From positions 1 to 33,941 of the forward strand of contig JAITFE010000019.1 of assembly GCA_031281585.1 (NCBI GenBank): DNA of 33,941 nt. The letters run 5' to 3'. Source of the DNA: Bifidobacteriaceae bacterium. Its GTDB lineage: Bacteria; Actinomycetota; Actinomycetes; Actinomycetales; WQXJ01. The notes beneath the pieces are model-generated. The model was not told the DNA's origin. It searched no databases and was given only the letters and a program-made list of their open reading frames with translations. This document shows, in pieces, positions 2,446 through 33,636 of the stretch. Made by a program: the position numbers and the translations under genes. Position 1 is the stretch's first letter. Each line of letters opens with the position of its first letter.

Positions 2446-3033
2446 GCACAGGATCCGCCAGTCGGCGAGTCGGCGGCACATGATCCGCCACTCGGCGGAA
2501 GCCCGGCACGGAATCCGCCGGTCGACGAGCCGGCGGCACATGATCCGCCACTGGGCGGAGGTCTTGGCGCATAATCCGCCACTCGGCGGAAGCCCGGCAC
2601 AAAATCTGCCACTGGGCGGACCTGGTGTAACGAAATCCGCCGTTCGGCGTCGATTGGCGGATTGTGTGCCGCTGAACCCGTCGAACGGCGTTTCCTGTGC
2701 CGTCCGGGGCACTCAGCCGCGTCGAGTGGCGGCTAATGTCCGGTTTCCCCCTCGGGGCGCGCCTCTGACCAGCGCAGATGCAAACCGGCCCGGACAAAAT
2801 CCGCCTCTCGCCGGAGGGGGTGTAACAGAATCCGCCTCTCACCGGAGAAGGCGCAACACAATCCGCCACTGGGCGGCGGAGGGGCATAGAATCCGCCGTT
2901 CGATGAAGCGGTGGCACAGCCTCCGCTGCTCGCCGGCGGCCGCGCCACAAAACCCGCCACTCGGCATCGACCGGCAGCTTCGGCTGGCGGATTGTGTGCC
3001 GCTGGGCACGTGGTGTTTCCTGTGCTGTCCGGG
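2446..3033. repeat. Repeat locus A: inverted blocks of ~30-31-bp units
   Basis: Forward-reading units (R) with consensus near GCACAnAATCCGCC-ACTCGGCGG start at about 2446, 2476, 2506, 2536, 2567, 2597 and 2628. Inverted units (F, containing TGGCGGATTGTGTGCCGCTG and relatives) start at about 2649, 2680 and 2721. A core follows, then R units at about 2792, 2823, 2854, 2884, 2914 and 2945, and two F units up to 3033. A stray R unit lies near 2362. Spacing is 30-31 bp almost throughout. Many R units carry a small hairpin (TCCGCC-ACTC-GGCGGA, for example 2484-2499). The last F pair (2985-3033) repeats the pair at 2655-2708. The frames open across it are by-products of the period. It ends about 20 bases before the lacI -10. 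Confidence 0.85.
2735..2798. repeat. Core of repeat locus A
   Basis: Between the F block and the second R block lies a non-periodic segment containing a small GC hairpin (CCCC-CTC-GGGG area), TGACCAG at 2766-2772 and GCAAACC at 2780-2786, seven bases apart. The same two words with the same 7-base gap occur at 30936-30956 in locus B, again between an F block and an R block. Confidence 0.75.
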
Positions 3034-5186: not shown

Positions 5187-5242
5187 GCAACTCAAACGCT
5201 CTTCGTGATCCACCTGCGGATCACGATGCTGGTTTGAGTTGC
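5187..5242. repeat. 56-nt bipartite hairpin between menB and menC
   Basis: An outer 11-bp stem (GCAACTCAAAC, 5187-5197, with GTTTGAGTTGC, 5232-5242) encloses a 6x6 internal loop and a perfect inner 8-bp stem (CGTGATCC, 5204-5211, with GGATCACG, 5218-5225) with a 6-base loop. It is formed by the first copy of the 93-bp repeat. There is no T tract, so it does not look like an intrinsic terminator. Confidence 0.75.
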
Positions 5243-5411
5243 ATTTGGCTCTCCGGCGGGCGGTTTCGGGGGCACAAGTGCGACCTTGGGCCTCATCGTG
5301 ATCCGCTGGTGGATCACGATGCTGGTGTGAGTTGCAGTTGGCCCTCCGGCGGGCTGTTTCGGGGGCCTGAGTGCGACCGTCGGCGTCTTCGTGATCCGCT
5401 GGTGGATCAGG
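5204..5411. repeat. 93-bp tandem repeat, about 2.2 copies
   Basis: CGTGATCC starts at 5204, 5297 and 5390, an exact 93-bp period. Each unit opens with the palindrome CGTGATCC-6 nt-GGATCACG and continues with GAGTTGCAnTTGGC and a CTCCGGCGGGC segment. The loop differs between copies 1 and 2 while the stem is preserved. The third copy diverges after 5411, on the way to the menC start. Because 93 is divisible by three, a frame stays open on the minus strand, but nothing about its composition looks like a protein gene. The gap 5130-5507 is otherwise empty. Confidence 0.85.
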
Positions 5412-5494
5412 AAGAGCCCCAAGGTTGCACTACCGCCGCTGAGAGGGTCGCCGTCGCCGTCCCGCAGAGCTCGCGAGCCTTCGGCCGGCAGCCC

Positions 5495-6613: not shown

Positions 6614-8730
6614 GCGGCTCCTTGGCGGCGGCGCGGGCGTTGTTGGCAGGAGCCGTCGCGGGCGGCCTGAAACGCGTGGTGTTCGCGCCGGGTTCGCGCA
6701 GCGCGCCGCTGGTCTACGCCGCCATGGAGGCCGCCGGCCGAGGCGAGTTGGAATTGACCGTCCGCACTGATGAGCGGGTGGCGGGGTTCACGGCCTTGGG
6801 GATGGCCGCGGCCACCGGCGAGGCTGCTGCGGTTGTGACGACATCAGGGACGGCGGTGGCGAACCTGCATCCGGCGGTCATGGAGGCGGCCGCTTCCCGG
6901 CTGCCGCTGTTGGCCATCACGGCCGACCGCCCGGCCGAGTTGCATGGCGTGGGCGCCAATCAGACAACCGACCAACGGGAGGTTTTCGGCTCGGCGCCGG
7001 TTTGGGAGGCCACCATTGCCGCAGGCGCAGACGACCGGTCAATCAAGCGCGAAGGCCGCCGGGCAGTGGCTGCGGCGTTGGGCCGCGCGTCAGGGCTTGG
7101 CGGCCCGGCCCACCTGAACATCCAATTCCGCGACCCCCTCGCGCCGGGCCCGGACTGGGGGGACGAACTCCGGTCTCAGCTCGCGGGTGTCAACCGGGCG
7201 GATGATCCTTCGGAACTTCACGGCCGCGTCCCCGTTGGAATGGGGAGGGCCCAGAACGAGTTTGTCGACGCGCGTGACGGCGGGTCCTGGCCGGAGAAGA
7301 CCGGGCCAGGCGTTGTGGGTTGCCCGCGCCAAACTGGGCCTGGGCCGGGGCGGCGTCCGGGAGAGCCAGAGCACGATGCCGGCGAGTTGCTCCCGGTGGT
7401 GTTGGAAAAGGGGCCTCGCACGGTGGTGGTCGCAGGATTCGGCGCCGGGGCGGCGGCGCGCGAGTTGGCGGAGGCGGCCGGCTGGCCCCTGCTGGCCGAA
7501 CCGGCTTCCGGATCATGGGCGGGTCCGAACGCGATCACGGCGGGCCGGTTGGTCGCGCAACTGTTGGCTGACGGGATTGAGCGCGTGGTGGCTTATGGCC
7601 GCCCGGTGCTGAGCCGGCCGGTCGCAACTCTGGTCCAGGATCCCCGGCTGGAGGTGGTCATTGTCCACCACGGCGGCGGTCCTTGGTTTGACTTGGGCCG
7701 TCAGGCGGGTCAAATCGCCAGCCGGGTGGTCGTGGTGCAGGAACCGGGTCGTCCCGGTCAGGAAGAGCGGGATTGGCTTGAGGCCTGGCAAACGGCGGGC
7801 CGGGAAGTCTGGCGGCAGCTTCAGGCGGCCCCCTGGCCGAATGGGCCAGCCATCGCAAACGTGGTGGCACGGGCCCAAGGCCCGCTGGTGGTCGGGGCGT
7901 CGAGCGCCATCCGGGACTTGGATTTGACTCCCGCTCCCGCAGGTGAGAAGCGAGTCTTGGCCATGCGGGGCCTGGCCGGGATTGATGGAACCGTCAGTTT
8001 CGCGGGCGGGGTCGCTGCCGCTCTCAAACGGCAGCCGACTCTCCCGGCGGGCCCGGAATCACGGCAACGCCTTGATCCAAGCGCTGCCGGGCTGGGCGCT
8101 GCACGGGAGGGATCATCTGCGGGGCGCCCCACCCGCGACCAGGGCCAACCCCAGAACCGGAACCAAGGCCAAGATCAGCCCGGCGGTGCTGGCGGCGATC
8201 GCCACAAGATTGTTCTCGACCGGGTTCAAGGCCAGGGCGAACACCATGGCCAACCCCAGAACCGACACCAAGGCGCGGCGGCGACCGTGCTGCTCGGGGA
8301 CTTGGCGTTGGCGCATGACGCCGGCGGCCTGATCATTCCCGAGCTCGAAGACCGGCCGGACATCAGGATTGTGGTCCTGCAAGACCGCGGCGGGGCCATC
8401 TTCGAGAACCTGGAGGTAGCGGCGCCAGAGCTGAGCCCCGCCTTCGAGCGTTTCTTCGCCACGCCGGTGAGTGTGGACCTGGAGTCGTTGGCGCGGGCAA
8501 CCGGCGCCAGCTTCGCCGAAGCCCGCACTCTGAGCCAATTGGAGGACGCGCTGAGCACGCCGCCGCACGGCATTAGCCTGGTCGGCGTGCCACTGGAACG
8601 GGCCCGTCGGCGTGGTTTTGAGCGCCAGATTGTGGAGCTTTCGAGAAATGCCCTGGGACCTCCCAGGAACTTCCCAGCGATCCGGGAGGATTCATCCAGG
8701 ATCACGCGGTTTGATAGACGGCGAGGATGA
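6610..8730 (+). CDS. menD: 2-Succinyl-5-enolpyruvyl-6-hydroxy-3-cyclohexene-1-carboxylate synthase, enlarged
   Basis: A thiamine-diphosphate enzyme joining isochorismate and 2-oxoglutarate in menaquinone synthesis. The frame gives 706 residues, against roughly 550-580 for relatives. Conserved parts are APGSRSAPL (26-34), TDERVAGF with the catalytic-type Glu55, TTSGTAVANLHPAV, ANQTTDQ, the cofactor segment GDLALAHDAGGL (about 562-573) and LQDRGGAIF (about 589-597). Its Asp at the usual Asn metal position also occurs in the mycobacterial enzyme. Two stretches are foreign to the family: about residues 185-258, and a Gln/Pro-rich insert at about 475-557 (see 8113-8290). The frame is open throughout, so it may be functional with surface insertions. 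A hairpin (CCTGGGA-CC-TCCCAGG, 8652-8667) lies in the extra C-terminal tail. GTG start by family alignment. Confidence 0.9.
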   Translation: MSGSLAAARALLAGAVAGGLKRVVFAPGSRSAPLVYAAMEAAGRGELELTVRTDERVAGFTALGMAAATGEAAAVVTTSGTAVANLHPAVMEAAASRLPLLAITADRPAELHGVGANQTTDQREVFGSAPVWEATIAAGADDRSIKREGRRAVAAALGRASGLGGPAHLNIQFRDPLAPGPDWGDELRSQLAGVNRADDPSELHGRVPVGMGRAQNEFVDARDGGSWPEKTGPGVVGCPRQTGPGPGRRPGEPEHDAGELLPVVLEKGPRTVVVAGFGAGAAARELAEAAGWPLLAEPASGSWAGPNAITAGRLVAQLLADGIERVVAYGRPVLSRPVATLVQDPRLEVVIVHHGGGPWFDLGRQAGQIASRVVVVQEPGRPGQEERDWLEAWQTAGREVWRQLQAAPWPNGPAIANVVARAQGPLVVGASSAIRDLDLTPAPAGEKRVLAMRGLAGIDGTVSFAGGVAAALKRQPTLPAGPESRQRLDPSAAGLGAAREGSSAGRPTRDQGQPQNRNQGQDQPGGAGGDRHKIVLDRVQGQGEHHGQPQNRHQGAAATVLLGDLALAHDAGGLIIPELEDRPDIRIVVLQDRGGAIFENLEVAAPELSPAFERFFATPVSVDLESLARATGASFAEARTLSQLEDALSTPPHGISLVGVPLERARRRGFERQIVELSRNALGPPRNFPAIREDSSRITRFDRRRG
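8113..8290 (-). other. Insert inside menD whose antisense strand reads as membrane helices
   Basis: In the sense direction this part of menD is low-complexity (QGQPQNRNQGQD and HGQPQNRHQGAA, a 27-bp repeat at 8143 and 8248, 105 bp apart). On the minus strand the same bases read as strongly hydrophobic segments with actinobacterial codon use, such as SVLGLAMVFALAL, NLVAIAASTAGLILALV and PVLGLALVAGG. It falls just before the conserved LLGDL of MenD. It may be a fragment of a membrane-protein gene captured in reverse orientation, kept in frame; I cannot name the source protein. Confidence 0.55.
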
Positions 8731-8743
8731 AAGGAAGACGACC

Positions 8744-10660
8744 ATGAGCGACGAGCCCCGTCCAACGCCAGGTGGCGAAGCCAACGAGGAGCCGCGGTGG
8801 CAATCTGCCGAGGTTCCCGGAACCGATCCGGCCGTCGGCACGCCACTATCCGAGGCGACCCCGCCCGCGCCGGACAGGCCCCCAATTCCCGTCTACCCGC
8901 CAGTGTTCCCGCCCGTCTCGCGGCCCCGCCCGCCCGCCTCGCAGACGCCCGAACCGCCGCCGATGCCGTCCGGACCGCCCCAGCCGCGCCCATCCTTCCC
9001 CCCCCAGGCCATTCCAGAACAGCGGGGCGCCCAAGAACAGCGCGGCGAGCAACCACTCCGGGGAGCGGAGCCGCTGAGTCCCCAGGCGCAGTACGTTCAG
9101 GTTCCAACGCCGCCGCCTCAGCCGCAAACCCCGTACGCGCCGCCGTATCCGCAGTCTTTCCCGCCCACGCGAAACCCGAACCAAGCTCAGGCGCTGCCGC
9201 CGTTTGGGCGTTCTGGCCAGCATGCGGCGCCCCCGCCTCCCCCCGAAGCGCCGAGCGGTCCCGGCGTCAACGAGTCGCGCGCCTGGCAGGCTGCGGCCCA
9301 GCCCGGTCCCGGCCCGGTCTCCGCGTCGCCAACGCCTCCGCTGCCGCCTCGACCCGCGTCGCCGTACCAGGCCCCGAGCTATTCGCTCGGCACTGGCCCC
9401 GTGCCGGCGGTGAATCCTGCCTCGCCGCCGTCCCCGCCCGCCGAGCCCGAGGCGGCTTTCGAACAACCGGAGGGCTCCGACAGGCCAAAACGCAAGACGG
9501 TGACGCGGGCGGGAGCCTGGACCATCAGCCTGGTGGTCGCCATTGTGGTGGCGGCCGCGTCGAGTGGAGCCACCTACCTGCTGTTGGATGGCCGCACCAA
9601 CACCAGCATCATCAGCGGTCCGCCCATCACCACCACCTCGAGCTCTCCGGTGGAGGGCTTGACGTCTGGCAAGAATGTGCCGGAGATCCCTGAGGACGCC
9701 TATGACGGCGAATCGCCGCAGTGGAATCTTGTGGCCGCCCAGGTCCAGCCGACGGTGGTCGCCTTGCAGGTGTCCACAGGCAACTTCGGCAACGGTTCGC
9801 TCGGGTCGGGCGTCATCATCAATTCCGAGAAGGGCTATGTGGTGACCAACAACCACGTGGTGGCCGAATCCGCCGCGATCGACGTGGTGCTTTCGGACGG
9901 GCGGATTTTCTCAGGCGACGTGCTCGGCACCGACCCCAGCACGGATCTGGCCGTGGTCGAGCTCGACGATCCGCCGGAAGACCTGGTGGAAGCCCAGCTT
10001 GGCAACTCTGACGAGGTCGTGGTGGGCGAACCGGTGATGGCGGTCGGCAATCCGCTCGGTTTGGACAACACGGTCACCACGGGCATTGTCTCGGCGTTGA
10101 ACCGGCCGGTCGCCACGGTCGGCGCGAGCGGCGACCCGAAGGACGAGGTGGTGACGAACGCCATCCAGGTCGACGCGGCCGTCAACCCCGGCAACTCGGG
10201 CGGGCCGTTGTTCGACTCGAAGGGCCGCGTGATCGGCATCAACAGCTCTATCGCCACGCTTGGCTCGTCCAGCTCCCAGGCGGCCGGGAACATCGGCCTG
10301 GCCTTCGCCATCCCCGTCAACCAGGTCAAGATCGTGGCCGGCCAGTTGATCGAGGATGGCAGCGCGGTCCATCCGTTCCTTGGCGTCACGTCTGAGAGCG
10401 CCACAGTCGACGTGGAGGGGGTGCAGCGGGTCGGCGCGAGGCTCAGGTCGGTGCAGACCGACACTCCGGCGGCCCAGGCCGGCTTGTCGGTCGGCGATGT
10501 GATCGTGGCCGTCAACGGCAACGCGATCTCCGGCAACACGTCTTTGACCGCTTGGATTCGGTCCTACCAGCCAGGCGACAAAGTGGTGTTGACGGTCATG
10601 CAGGGCGGCAAGGCCAACGATGTCGAGGTGACGTTGGCCACCCGCGAGGAAGCTTCGTAG
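8744..10660 (+). CDS. HtrA/DegP-type membrane-anchored serine protease with PDZ domain
   Basis: A 638-residue S1C protease. Residues 1 to about 250 form a Pro/Gln/Ala-rich cytoplasmic region, followed by one membrane helix (about 257-281, ISLVVAIVVAAASSGATYLL), a Ser/Thr linker, the trypsin-like domain with His371 (TNNHVV), Asp401 (STDLAVVEL) and Ser485 (NPGNSGGPLF), and a single PDZ domain (about 543-635). It would act on the outer face of the membrane in protein quality control. The ATG at 8744 has AAGGAAG six bases upstream; an upstream frame extension overlapping menD is not used. It lies 13 bases after menD, so probably shares its transcript, and ends before a strong dyad separating it from convergent menF. 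A role linked to menaquinone synthesis is not implied by its sequence. Confidence 0.93.
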   Translation: MSDEPRPTPGGEANEEPRWQSAEVPGTDPAVGTPLSEATPPAPDRPPIPVYPPVFPPVSRPRPPASQTPEPPPMPSGPPQPRPSFPPQAIPEQRGAQEQRGEQPLRGAEPLSPQAQYVQVPTPPPQPQTPYAPPYPQSFPPTRNPNQAQALPPFGRSGQHAAPPPPPEAPSGPGVNESRAWQAAAQPGPGPVSASPTPPLPPRPASPYQAPSYSLGTGPVPAVNPASPPSPPAEPEAAFEQPEGSDRPKRKTVTRAGAWTISLVVAIVVAAASSGATYLLLDGRTNTSIISGPPITTTSSSPVEGLTSGKNVPEIPEDAYDGESPQWNLVAAQVQPTVVALQVSTGNFGNGSLGSGVIINSEKGYVVTNNHVVAESAAIDVVLSDGRIFSGDVLGTDPSTDLAVVELDDPPEDLVEAQLGNSDEVVVGEPVMAVGNPLGLDNTVTTGIVSALNRPVATVGASGDPKDEVVTNAIQVDAAVNPGNSGGPLFDSKGRVIGINSSIATLGSSSSQAAGNIGLAFAIPVNQVKIVAGQLIEDGSAVHPFLGVTSESATVDVEGVQRVGARLRSVQTDTPAAQAGLSVGDVIVAVNGNAISGNTSLTAWIRSYQPGDKVVLTVMQGGKANDVEVTLATREEAS

Positions 10661-10676
10661 ACCCTGCGGAGGGGGA

Positions 10677-10734
10677 GGAAACGGGGACGGTACCTTTTTC
10701 CGGTTCGCCGGAAAAAGGTACCGTCCCCATTTCC
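10677..10734. terminator. 58-nt near-perfect dyad between convergent genes
   Basis: A perfect 21-bp stem (10683-10703 with 10708-10728) closed by a TTCG loop is extended by a mismatch and five more pairs (GGAAA/TTTCC). It lies between the htrA-type stop at 10660 and the menF stop at 10745, so it can serve both directions. The T run is inside the stem rather than after it, so it is not a classical intrinsic terminator; the GGGGACGGTACC word resembles dispersed REP-like sequences. A related GGGGACGGT word occurs near 32518. Confidence 0.7.
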
Positions 10735-30516: not shown

Positions 30517-30538
30517 GGCGCCTGATCGGGACTCACAA

Positions 30539-31099
30539 CCAGACGAACCCCGGCGTTCGCCGCGCAGTGTGGTTTTTCCATCCGGCCGGCCCCGCACAAT
30601 GCGGGTTCGCATCCGGCCGGCCCCGCCGAACGCCTGCCGAACGCCCGAATGTAGGATTCTGTCTGGCGTGCGGCGCACGCGGCCAGATGGAATCCCACAC
30701 TCGGCGGGTTCTACCAACTGAATTCCTACACTCGACGGTTCTACCAGACAAAGTCCCACACTCGGCGGGTTCGACCAGATGAATTCTTACACTCGACGGC
30801 GAATGTAGGATTTTATCTGGCTTGCGGCCGCGAATGTAGGATTCTGTCTGGCTTGCGGTCGCGAATGTAGAATTCCATCTGGTGCGGGCCCGCGAATGTA
30901 TGATTCTGTCTTCCCGCCGACACGGGCCGCGTTCCTGACCAGGTAGGACGCAAACCAGCGCAAGATGAAATCCTACGCTCGGCGCTGGCGGCCAGATAAG
31001 ATCCCACACTCGACGGGTTCTACCAGATATAGTCCTACACTCGATGGCGAATGTAGGATTCTATCTTGCCCAACTATTCGAATGTAGGATTCACTCTGG
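30539..31099. repeat. Repeat locus B: inverted blocks of 31-bp units
   Basis: F units (CGAATGTAGGATTCTGTCTGG and variants) start at 30646, 30800, 30831, 30862, 30893, 31048 and 31079, with two divergent ones before 30625. R units (reverse complement, CCAGATGnAATCCCACACTCG type) start at 30683, 30714, 30744, 30775, 30961, 30992 and 31023, with a divergent one at 30539. Spacing within blocks is 31 bp, once 30. The R-to-F junctions (30775-30820, 31023-31068) form long imperfect hairpins with 4-base loops (ACGG, ATGG). The order R4-F4-core-R3-F2 parallels locus A, and both share AATCCnnCACTCGGCGG. The block lies between nuoN and the polyprenyl synthase and contains no credible gene. Confidence 0.88.
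30914..30960. repeat. Core of repeat locus B
   Basis: A non-periodic segment between the F and R blocks with a CCCG...CGGG hairpin, TGACCAG (30936-30942) and GCAAACC (30950-30956), seven bases apart as in locus A (2766-2786). Confidence 0.75.
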
Positions 31100-31437
31100 C
31101 CAAACGGCCTAGGGTAGGGCCCTGTCTTTGAGAGGGATTTCAGTATCCCCTAGCCACGAGCGCCGACGCCGTCGACTGCGAGCTGACACTCTACGATCGG
31201 GACTCGGACCCAGACGGAATCCACCTTTCGCGGTCGAGTGTCGCTCTGCCATGCCCCTCTTTGGTCTTGTCTGCCTATCCCGCGTCGGCCAACTCTGGAT
31301 CCCGAGCTTCGAGCGTCCCAAGGTCCGCCTCGGCTTCCGCCGACCACTTGACGGCGGTTGAGGGCTCCTCACCCCGCCGCTCGGGCGGCTTGGGGGCCGC
31401 TCTCATCAGGGCATGAGGCCCCAGCCGGCCGCTGACA
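31100..31437. other. Gene-free stretch before the polyprenyl synthase
   Basis: I find no gene here. It has a small hairpin (GGGAT 31134-31138 with ATCCC 31145-31149) and one isolated degenerate R unit (CCAGACGGAATCC from 31210). The remainder shows no structure I recognise. Confidence 0.5.
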
Positions 31438-31443
31438 TAAGAT
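31438..31443 (+). promoter_or_regulatory. Candidate -10 of the polyprenyl synthase, leaderless arrangement
   Basis: TAAGAT lies eight bases before the ATG at 31452 and no ribosome site is present, so transcription probably begins at the start codon. Confidence 0.5.
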
Positions 31444-31451
31444 AGAGCGTT

Positions 31452-32474
31452 ATGGCATCCTCCCGGCCCGCTGTCGCCTTGGGCGATCCGTCGTTGGACG
31501 CAGCAATCGGCGCTGGGATGGACCGGGTGGAGGCGAAGCTGGCCTTGACGGTCGACTCGCCGGACCAGTTGGTGGCGGACGCCTCTGCGCATCTGCTCCG
31601 GTCTGGCGGGAAGCGACTGCGGCCGCTGCTTGTCCTTCTGGCTTCGAGCCTGGGTCGCGGCATTGACGACCAGGTGGTGGACGCGGCCGTGGTGGTGGAG
31701 CTCACCCACCTCGCGTCGCTGTACCACGACGACGTGATGGACGCCGCCCCTCTGCGGCGCGGCGCGCCCTCCGCGCATGAAGCCTTCGGACCCTCGGTCG
31801 CCATCCTGACAGGCGACCTCCTGTTCGCCAAGGCGTCGCAGATCGTGGCGGGCCTGGGACCGGAAATGGTCCGGCTGCAGGCGGAGACGTTCGAGCGGCT
31901 GTGCCTGGGCCAAATCCATGAGACGGTGGGCCCGCGCGGGGAGGACGACCCGGTGGCGTTCCACCTCCAGGTGTTGGCGGACAAGACGGGCGCCCTGATC
32001 GCCACTTCCGCCCGCTTCGGGGCGTTGCTGGGCGGCTGCCCGCCCGCAATCGTGGAGGCGCTGGTCGGCTACGGGGAGGCGGTCGGGGTGGCCTTCCAGT
32101 TGGCGGACGACATCATTGACTTGACCTCCCCGGCCGAGGTGACGGGCAAGACCCCGGGCACCGACTTGCGCGAGGGCGTGCCGACCATGCCGCAGTTGCT
32201 GGTCCAGGCGGCGGCCCGCCGCGACTTGGCGGACGGCGTGGCGGGCAGCCCGGACGTGGCTTTGGCCAACGCGATCGAGGGCGACCTGTCCGGCGATGCC
32301 GCGCTGGCGGCGGTGGTGGACCAACTGCGGGCCAACCCGGCCCTTGAGGAATCCCGCCGCATAGCCACAACGTGGGCGAACCGCGCGGTCGCGGAACTGG
32401 CTCCGCTCCCGAAGGGCCCGGTCCGCCGCGCCCTGACGGACATAGCGGACCTCTTCGTAAGCCGCCTCTCCTAA
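31452..32474 (+). CDS. Polyprenyl diphosphate synthase (trans-type)
   Basis: A 340-residue all-helical prenyltransferase that elongates allylic diphosphates with isopentenyl diphosphate. The two Asp-rich motifs are DDVMD (93-97) and DDIID (219-223), and GGKRLRPLL (52-60) binds diphosphate. The residues four and five before the first motif are Ser and Ala rather than bulky aromatics, consistent with a long-chain product. With men genes and a MenJ-like reductase nearby, it most likely makes the menaquinone side chain, like the M. tuberculosis grcC1 gene beside menJ; the chain length cannot be read from sequence. It is convergent with the Fic gene. Confidence 0.94.
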   Translation: MASSRPAVALGDPSLDAAIGAGMDRVEAKLALTVDSPDQLVADASAHLLRSGGKRLRPLLVLLASSLGRGIDDQVVDAAVVVELTHLASLYHDDVMDAAPLRRGAPSAHEAFGPSVAILTGDLLFAKASQIVAGLGPEMVRLQAETFERLCLGQIHETVGPRGEDDPVAFHLQVLADKTGALIATSARFGALLGGCPPAIVEALVGYGEAVGVAFQLADDIIDLTSPAEVTGKTPGTDLREGVPTMPQLLVQAAARRDLADGVAGSPDVALANAIEGDLSGDAALAAVVDQLRANPALEESRRIATTWANRAVAELAPLPKGPVRRALTDIADLFVSRLS

Positions 32475-32506
32475 CCCGGGAACCCGGGAACCCGGGAACC
32501 CGGGGA
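32475..32506. repeat. 8-bp tandem repeat CCCGGGAA
   Basis: CCCGGGAA occurs three times in a row directly after the polyprenyl synthase stop, followed by CCCGGGG. Every unit is centred on the palindrome CCCGGG, so many alternative hairpins are possible. Copy number probably varies by slippage. Confidence 0.85.
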
Positions 32507-32540
32507 CACGGGAAGGCGGGGACGGTCCTTCCGCCCACAC

Positions 32541-32604: not shown

Positions 32605-33636
32605 TCAGCCCGGGCGGTGACGGCGGTAGCGTTCCAGTTTGTAGGCTTCGAGGGCTTCGAGGGTGGACCGCCACCGGCCGCGCTGGTCAAGACTGGCTTG
32701 CAGGCGACCTCTGATTGCGGCCTGCCTCAAGGCCGCCAGCGACATGGACTGGTCCGCCAACGCCGACAGCGGGACCAGGTCGTCGGCGTTGGAGATCGTG
32801 GGCAGGAGCGAGTTCAGCGAGGCGATGGCGCGCCGGGCGATGATTTCGGCCAACGGGTCCGCGTCCCCGGCGTCGGCTTTGGCCAGCGCGGCCAGGTAGC
32901 GGCGGCGCTGCGTTTTCAGGATCACCACCGGGGGCCAGCCCAAACGCACCATGATCAGATTCAACAGCAGTCTTCCGGTGCGCCCGTTGCCATCCAAGAA
33001 CGGATGGATGCGTTCGAACTCGGCGTGCCAGGCGGCCACCATCCGCGGGCCGTCCGGCAGCGCGGCCTTCCCGGAGAGCAGGTCCGAACCCGCCTTGTTC
33101 ACCCGTGACACCCATCCATCGAGCATGGAAGGCACCAGCGGGAACATGGGCGGCTTCATCCCGCCGGGAAACGCCGCGATCTCATGGCGGCGGAAACTGC
33201 CAGGCGATTCCGACTCCTTGGCCGCCGGGTTAGGGGCCACGCCCCACACGTGACGCATTGCGAGGTGATGGACCTCGCGGACCTCGGTCAACGCGACAAT
33301 TTGGTCATGTTCCCAGGCCCGTTCGGCGCCGGCCTGCCCATAGACCCAAGTCGCGGCCTCGCCGTAGCCTAGGACCTCCAGGTAGTCCTTGATTTCCCTG
33401 GCGCCCACGGCGCGGCCCTGATCCAGCAAAGCCTGGACCTCGCGCAGGATCAAAGTGTTGCCCTCGACGGCCGTCGAATGGTGCACCTCCATGTGCCAGA
33501 GCTCGCTCCACGAAGGGCGCGCCTCCTCGACGGGCGGCAGGCCGCCATGCGCTCTCAAGTCGGCCATCGCGGAGGCGAACTGGTCGAACACCGCCTCACG
33601 CGAAGGGCGCCCGCGGCCCCGAAGGGAATTTGTCAC
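32605..33636 (-). CDS. Fic-domain protein with N-terminal inhibitory motif
   Basis: A 343-residue Fic protein. The catalytic motif HPFLDGNGRTGR (from His211) is intact, predicting AMP transfer from ATP to a protein hydroxyl. An inhibitory helix motif STAVEGN (54-60, S/TxxxEG/N) lies N-terminal to the Fic core, so it belongs to the self-inhibited class II type. The C-terminal 50 residues are Arg-rich with a possible helix-turn-helix (SMSLAALRQAAIRGRL). No antitoxin gene is adjacent, as expected for class II. The start is uncertain: GTG 33636 is six bases after TATGCT on the minus strand (leaderless), and GTG 33666 would add ten residues. The target is unknown. Confidence 0.9.
   Translation of the reverse strand: MTNSLRGRGRPSREAVFDQFASAMADLRAHGGLPPVEEARPSWSELWHMEVHHSTAVEGNTLILREVQALLDQGRAVGAREIKDYLEVLGYGEAATWVYGQAGAERAWEHDQIVALTEVREVHHLAMRHVWGVAPNPAAKESESPGSFRRHEIAAFPGGMKPPMFPLVPSMLDGWVSRVNKAGSDLLSGKAALPDGPRMVAAWHAEFERIHPFLDGNGRTGRLLLNLIMVRLGWPPVVILKTQRRRYLAALAKADAGDADPLAEIIARRAIASLNSLLPTISNADDLVPLSALADQSMSLAALRQAAIRGRLQASLDQRGRWRSTLEALEAYKLERYRRHRPG

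Follow-up and report, generated by a model that had tools for sequence, protein, structure and literature searches.

A dispersed family of intergenic elements built from phased inverted repeats around a conserved core in Bifidobacteriaceae

Here we describe two repeat arrays, locus A (~2452-2993) and locus B (~30643-31091), in a window of 33,941 nucleotides that makes up the whole of contig C19 in the 3.98-Mb, high-GC draft genome of a member of the Bifidobacteriaceae. At both loci a unit of ~31 bp, present in two orientations, makes up arrays around a short core. We call the orientation AATCC..CACTCG F and the inverted one R, labels that are opposite to those of an earlier, sequence-only reading of the window, and the features lie as follows.

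2452..2649, + strand: locus A F block, seven A-type units (AATCCGCCACTCGGCG class) starting at 2452, 2482, 2512, 2542, 2573, 2603 and 2634, period 30-31 bp
2648..2735, - strand: locus A R block, inverted units starting at 2648, ~2679 (degenerate) and 2720; the first R overlaps the last F by 2 bp
2766..2786, + strand: locus A core TGACCAGCGCAGATGCAAACC, 30 bp past the last R 16-mer
2798..2966, + strand: locus A second F block, units at 2798, 2829, 2860, 2890 and 2951
2978..2993, - strand: locus A final R unit, degenerate
30517..31451: gap of 935 bp between nuoN and the polyprenyl synthetase gene (ispB), containing locus B
30643..30658, - strand: locus B outermost R unit, B-type (GAATGTAGGATTC class)
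30691..30798, + strand: locus B F block, units at 30691, 30722, 30752 and 30783
30797..30905, - strand: locus B R block, units at 30797, 30828, ~30860 (degenerate) and 30890, with a 2-bp overlap with the last F
30936..30956, + strand: locus B core TGACCAGGTAGGACGCAAACC, 30 bp past the last R 16-mer
30969..31046, + strand: locus B second F block, units at 30969, 31000 and 31031
31045..31091, - strand: locus B last R block, units at 31045 and 31076

Both loci share one block order: F units, R units, the core, then F units and R units again. The core motif, TGACCAG and GCAAACC separated by seven bases, is exact at both sites and on the forward strand at each, with no third site in the whole window, and it occurred in none of 100 dinucleotide shuffles (0 expected). 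Allowing 3 mismatches or fewer, the unit AATCCnnCACTCGGCG matches 28 times in the window against 6.6 expected and a shuffle maximum of 15, and 24 of the 28 matches fall inside locus A or locus B. Several spacings are exactly common to the two loci, namely the 31/30-bp unit period, the 30 bp from the last R 16-mer to the core, and the overlap of exactly 2 bp at the F/R junctions, while the distance from the core start to the next F 16-mer is 32 bp in the A-type and 33 bp in the B-type. The earlier claim of a common core and block order is thus borne out, with core, order and spacings all matching; the span then given, 2735-2815, holds the core and one unit but falls well short of the full extent of locus A.

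Three other features of the window may be recorded here. Intergenic 93-bp tandem repeats with GTGATCCGCTGGTGGATCAC palindromes lie at 5199-5429, short AACCCGGG tandem repeats stand directly behind the polyprenyl synthetase gene at 32473-32523, and a Fic/DOC-family protein is encoded on the reverse strand at 32605-33591, its second half having a weak, below-cut-off match to an IS110 transposase.

Queries of the genome were the core, each of the two loci and a sequence-only profile made from 16 copies. Among the fetched regions, at least 21 arrays of four or more units were found, all of them intergenic and none inside a gene according to a simple codon-usage gene caller made for this analysis, and 20 of the 21 carry the core. 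The sequence-only reading had inferred a dispersed element present in two copies 28 kb apart; the dispersal is confirmed, and the copy number rises to at least 21. The case that would have undone it, a core found at these two sites by chance-level similarity, does not apply, given the shuffled controls and the further arrays. The arrays form two subfamilies, with A-type unit GGCACAgAATCCGCCACTCGGCG and B-type unit CCAGACAgAATCCTACATTCGGCG, the B-type core having the form TGACCAGsGnAAACGsrAAt. Since the closest relative of locus A lies on contig C41 (90% over 167 bp) and that of locus B on contig C93 (72%), the window loci belong to separate subfamilies and do not form a pair, so that of the proposal of two copies of one element the single composite architecture stands but the identity of the units does not. 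Across the genome the core follows the last R 16-mer by 30 bp in 17 cases, F follows the core start by 32/33 bp in 15 cases, and the 2-bp tail-to-tail F/R overlap occurs 23 times; copies within one genome are partly related, and such counts are not independent. By gene orientation, 9 arrays lie between tandem, 5 between divergent and 4 between convergent genes, without strong 3′-end bias. No neighbour gene family is common to the array flanks beyond generic ABC ATPases, which agrees with the idea that the element has no protein of its own.

In sister species the units are ~21 bp long and wholly different in sequence from those of A and B, yet the geometry is retained: an inverted unit, 22-25 bp, the core TGACCWGCGnAAACGCAA, and an inverted unit 24-27 bp past the core start. 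The units are GATGCAAAACGTCGAACTCG in genome G008, GGAGATAAATTGAAACACTCG in G012, GGAGATAGGATCGCAGTCTCG in G005, GACACAAAAGTCGCCAAACTTCGG in G009, GGGTGCAAAAGCGGGCACTCG in G002, GAGATGAAATGTCTATCTCG in G006 and CTACATAACCGTACTCTCGCGAG in G015. The distance from R to core is 22-25 bp in all seven, and in every one except G015 F lies 24-27 bp from the core start and R and F are 46-51 bp apart, with the geometry counts for G002, G006, G009 and G012 coming from one to three core sites each. G015 is the exception, with F 37 bp from the core start, R and F 61-63 bp apart, and units that are single. Where units repeat, the period is 31 bp in G008 (31 cases), G009 (11), G012 and G002, and 41 bp in G005 (10 cases) and G006, which is 31 bp plus one helical turn. 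The shorter motif TGACCWGCnnAAACG occurs, against a reversed control, 65 to 0 times in G008 (partly from a third element family), 63 to 1 in G015, 56 to 0 in G012, 41 to 2 in G009, 30 to 0 in G005 and 23 to 1 in G000; G001, G007 and G016 are poor in elements. That third family in G008 reads TAGGAGCGTGGTGAACAACCACGCTCC ... TGACCAGCGGAAACG ... GGTTTGTTCACCGGTTTCCTAG (e.g. L473, L475, L480), and its core form TGACCAGCGGAAACG occurs several dozen times there. The A- and B-type arrays and their counterparts in the sister species are members of one large element family on one plan, in which the repeat differs by species and the copy number ranges from 0 to 65 across a single bacterial family; the element-bearing Bifidobacteriaceae are presumably a termite-gut lineage. 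We know of no published description of this element family in the open-access subset of the literature.

The single-unit elements of G015 offer the clearest view of what is conserved. This genome has ~49 elements, with 98 half-sites that are nearly all R..F pairs around the core and none in the reversed control. In 43 aligned copies the arms have mean pairwise identities of 94% and 95% and the strict core 90%, while the two spacers, at fixed length, have 41% and 45%, where composition alone would give 26%. Such maintenance of arms and core beside near-randomised spacers points to long-lived copies kept by selection for some host role, and not only to decaying relics. Copies have also been made recently, because 20 pairs share more than 80% of their spacer sequence and most of these lie at unrelated loci. 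By the gene caller named above, the elements sit mostly 0-60 bp behind stop codons, 16 of them between convergent, 20 between tandem and 4 between divergent genes, and several provide a gene's stop codon, located inside the arm.

What, then, do the arms do? If they formed a hairpin under selection, each arm should fit its own partner best, but arms fit their partners no better than the arms of other copies (p=0.91 for the A-type, p=0.73 for the B-type, p=1.0 for G015), which argues against such a hairpin. We regard it as quite improbable that the arrays encode a structured RNA, whether terminator, attenuator or sRNA, at many loci. For an RNA speak the spacers of G015, which fold better than shuffled sequence and show modest pairing covariation on the right side, and related core sequences that in other actinobacteria cap terminator-like hairpins located behind tRNA genes; against it, RNAalifold finds 0 compensatory pairs in the 43 G015 copies and weak structure in the own genome, whose left spacers fold no better than shuffled, the whole window has no Rfam match at gathering thresholds, and the helical 31/41-bp phasing is a feature of DNA. 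A hairpin contribution may exist in the G015 genome only. Three narrower ideas were dropped: folding of the whole element as RNA, in which the inverted arms drive the fold and yet do not compensate; a left hairpin seen by eye in G015, which the own genome does not bear out; and a GNRA mini-hairpin in the core, absent from the B-type and from many G015 copies. Taken together, the lack of arm coevolution, the 31/41-bp phasing, and the keeping of arms and core with loss of spacers argue for the arms as predicted double-stranded protein-binding sites, rather than RNA or single-stranded hairpins. As a separate observation, in Nocardioides, Streptomyces and other actinobacteria the core sequence TGACCWGCGGAAACGC is found in hairpins, most of which immediately follow tRNA genes (L160, L230, L234, L149, L463, L465).

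Comparison with related genomes shows where the element is absent. In nine of nine sister species of the genus the nuoN-ispB spacing is 23-187 bp, with no element, compared with 935 bp here, so the position of locus B is lineage-specific. For locus A the comparison is with G007, the other sisters being rearranged or cut by contig ends, and there divergent rhaI and lacI lie ~180 bp apart without an array. The elements thus share with MITEs their presence and absence at orthologous sites (nine sisters for locus B, one arrangement for locus A), and they are also short, non-coding, multi-copy and intergenic, with terminal inverted repeats. The suggestion that they are mobile or recombination-active is supported, as regards spread, by the copy number, the recently duplicated copies and the empty sites, but neither a target-site duplication nor a transposase was found. 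None of the 43 G015 copies has a target-site duplication evident by eye, the way in which both target duplications and unit palindromes were judged, and the palindromic boundary CTCGCGAG makes duplication of a fixed target indistinguishable from the arm. No autonomous parent with matching arms or ends turned up in the own-genome flanks, the IS21 loci or the viral and plasmid collections, the genomes being incomplete draft assemblies; among plasmid and phage records neither locus A nor locus B has a match, and the units of four sister species, the ones scanned there, are absent from the viral contigs. The idea of insertion into pre-existing inverted repeats was also dropped, flank complementarity being at the level of shuffled flanks. 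In two viral contigs (L275 ~7000-7400; L264 ~10350-10700) the core occurs next to helicase/primase-like genes, surrounded by short direct repeats (GTGGCCGAT, CGTGATTGC), and these sites are possibly replication origins.

A known mobile element might have left such arrays behind. Descent from the relic ends of IS21-family insertion sequences, whose multiple end repeats are bound by IstA, or from MITEs derived from them, would account for several unit copies per side, as IS21 ends carry multiple direct repeats (L1/L2 and R1/R2; PMC10122671); IS21-like end repeats adjoin locus A, and one IS21 sits in the core of a G012 element. We nevertheless judge this origin improbable. At the IstB-bearing loci fetched from these genomes the end units differ, the published structure has a repeat spacing of 23 bp (PMC10122671) against 31/41 here, TG..CA termini are not seen on the element, and the sole unit match, in G012, is to an IS inserted in an element and not to its own end. 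An IS21-end origin had been considered from a G012 contig, C305, until it proved to be an IS21 inserted in the element core. The earlier reading had named a match to a known insertion sequence as fatal, and here the unit was not at IS21 ends. On C305 (L334 ~217-330) the IS21 interrupts the core of an array element, which suggests that the arrays are landing sites for insertion sequences. Beside locus A, at 2165-2355, lie 64-bp tandem repeats with GGTCCCTCGATAGTGGCAAC, ending GGCGGCAGATGACA; by sequence they resemble the IS21 right end in C305 and are probably an IS21 relic, outside the element family. Repeats of the GGCTCAATAnCGTG type at 2000-2130 are like the end repeats behind the IstB gene in G005 contig C361.

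It is likewise highly improbable that these are REP/REPIN elements moved through single-stranded hairpins by a RAYT (Y1 HUH) transposase. The elements are indeed dispersed, intergenic and in inverted pairs, and the own genome has Y1_Tnp genes, but these lack flanking A or B units. The search proposed earlier for a protein whose presence tracks the element came out against Y1_Tnp: no match was found in G012 or G015, both rich in elements, while G007 has one match and zero elements. The arms are uncompensated, and by eye no GTAG/CGTC tag or palindrome is common to the units of the eight species, although the B-type R units contain GTAG.

The reading we favour, with modest confidence, is a non-autonomous, MITE- or BIME-1-like dispersed element family whose units and core are bound by predicted trans-acting proteins. 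An asymmetric conserved core sits between inverted units of ~21-23 bp, which may recur outward every 31 (or 41) bp, with every distance constant in helical terms and the spacer letters free to vary. The units would be double-stranded sites for a lineage-specific DNA-binding protein, in the simplest case a transposase-like end-binder supplied in trans, which would assemble along the array on one face of the DNA. A second, conserved factor would bind the core and bend the DNA, so that the left and right arrays synapse. The element would spread, in the manner of a MITE or BIME, to sites between genes, often close behind a stop codon; a fast-changing unit recogniser would lead each species to amplify its own version of the unit, while core and geometry stay constant, and tail-to-tail F/R junctions may come from elements abutting or from end-to-end duplication.

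A less probable account, though one we take seriously, is that selection rather than mobility retains the arrays as BIME-1/RIB-like host sites around the site of a bending protein, with roles in nucleoid organisation, topoisomerase binding, or transcription end and insulation at gene 3′ ends. In its favour are the tight conservation of arms and core beside free spacers, the placement of the G015 copies behind stops and their scarcity between divergent genes, and E. coli BIME-1, which has the same plan, two inverted REPs flanking an IHF-binding segment, with units extending into mosaic clusters (PMC2817692). A unit that is replaced in every species and so wide a range of copy number are, however, unlike an essential site, orthologous loci are empty, and the own-genome arrays lack a strong bias to 3′ ends. 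Because the elements differ in number and position and their units turn over, we prefer a trans-mobilised, MITE-like element.

Compared with BIME-1/RIB, the elements are alike in having inverted units flank a core segment, here a predicted protein site, and in being dispersed, extragenic and extended into clusters; they are unlike it in having no general REP palindrome or GTAG tag, another core motif, 31/41-bp helical phasing, arms that do not compensate and no RAYT that tracks them. Prokaryotic MITEs such as Correia elements and QMITE2 lie in some cases near 3′ ends and in some contain an IHF site (PMC10969869). They too are short, non-coding and intergenic with inverted repeats, but the present family has species-specific arms with one core common to different families, phased multi-unit arrays, and no target-site duplication or parent transposon that we could find. 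The ends of IS21, Tn7 and Mu carry a ~20-bp transposase site in several directly repeated copies, inverted between ends. Multiple direct copies per side, inverted between sides, are seen here as well, but with no transposase gene, a longer period, and sides ~50 bp apart around a conserved core.

We tentatively raise the possibility that these arrays represent a new class of nucleoprotein element in Actinomycetota, with a conserved core and its factor, phased inverted arrays, and a unit whose sequence a rapidly evolving recogniser changes from species to species. From the family one would predict, in Actinomycetota, a factor that binds the core and a protein that binds DNA or resembles a transposase. 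The family provides a natural experiment as well, in which one protein-DNA geometry is combined with recognition sequences that differ among eight related species, often in dozens of copies each, and how REP/BIME-like repeats gain and change their sequence is now testable outside the RAYT system.
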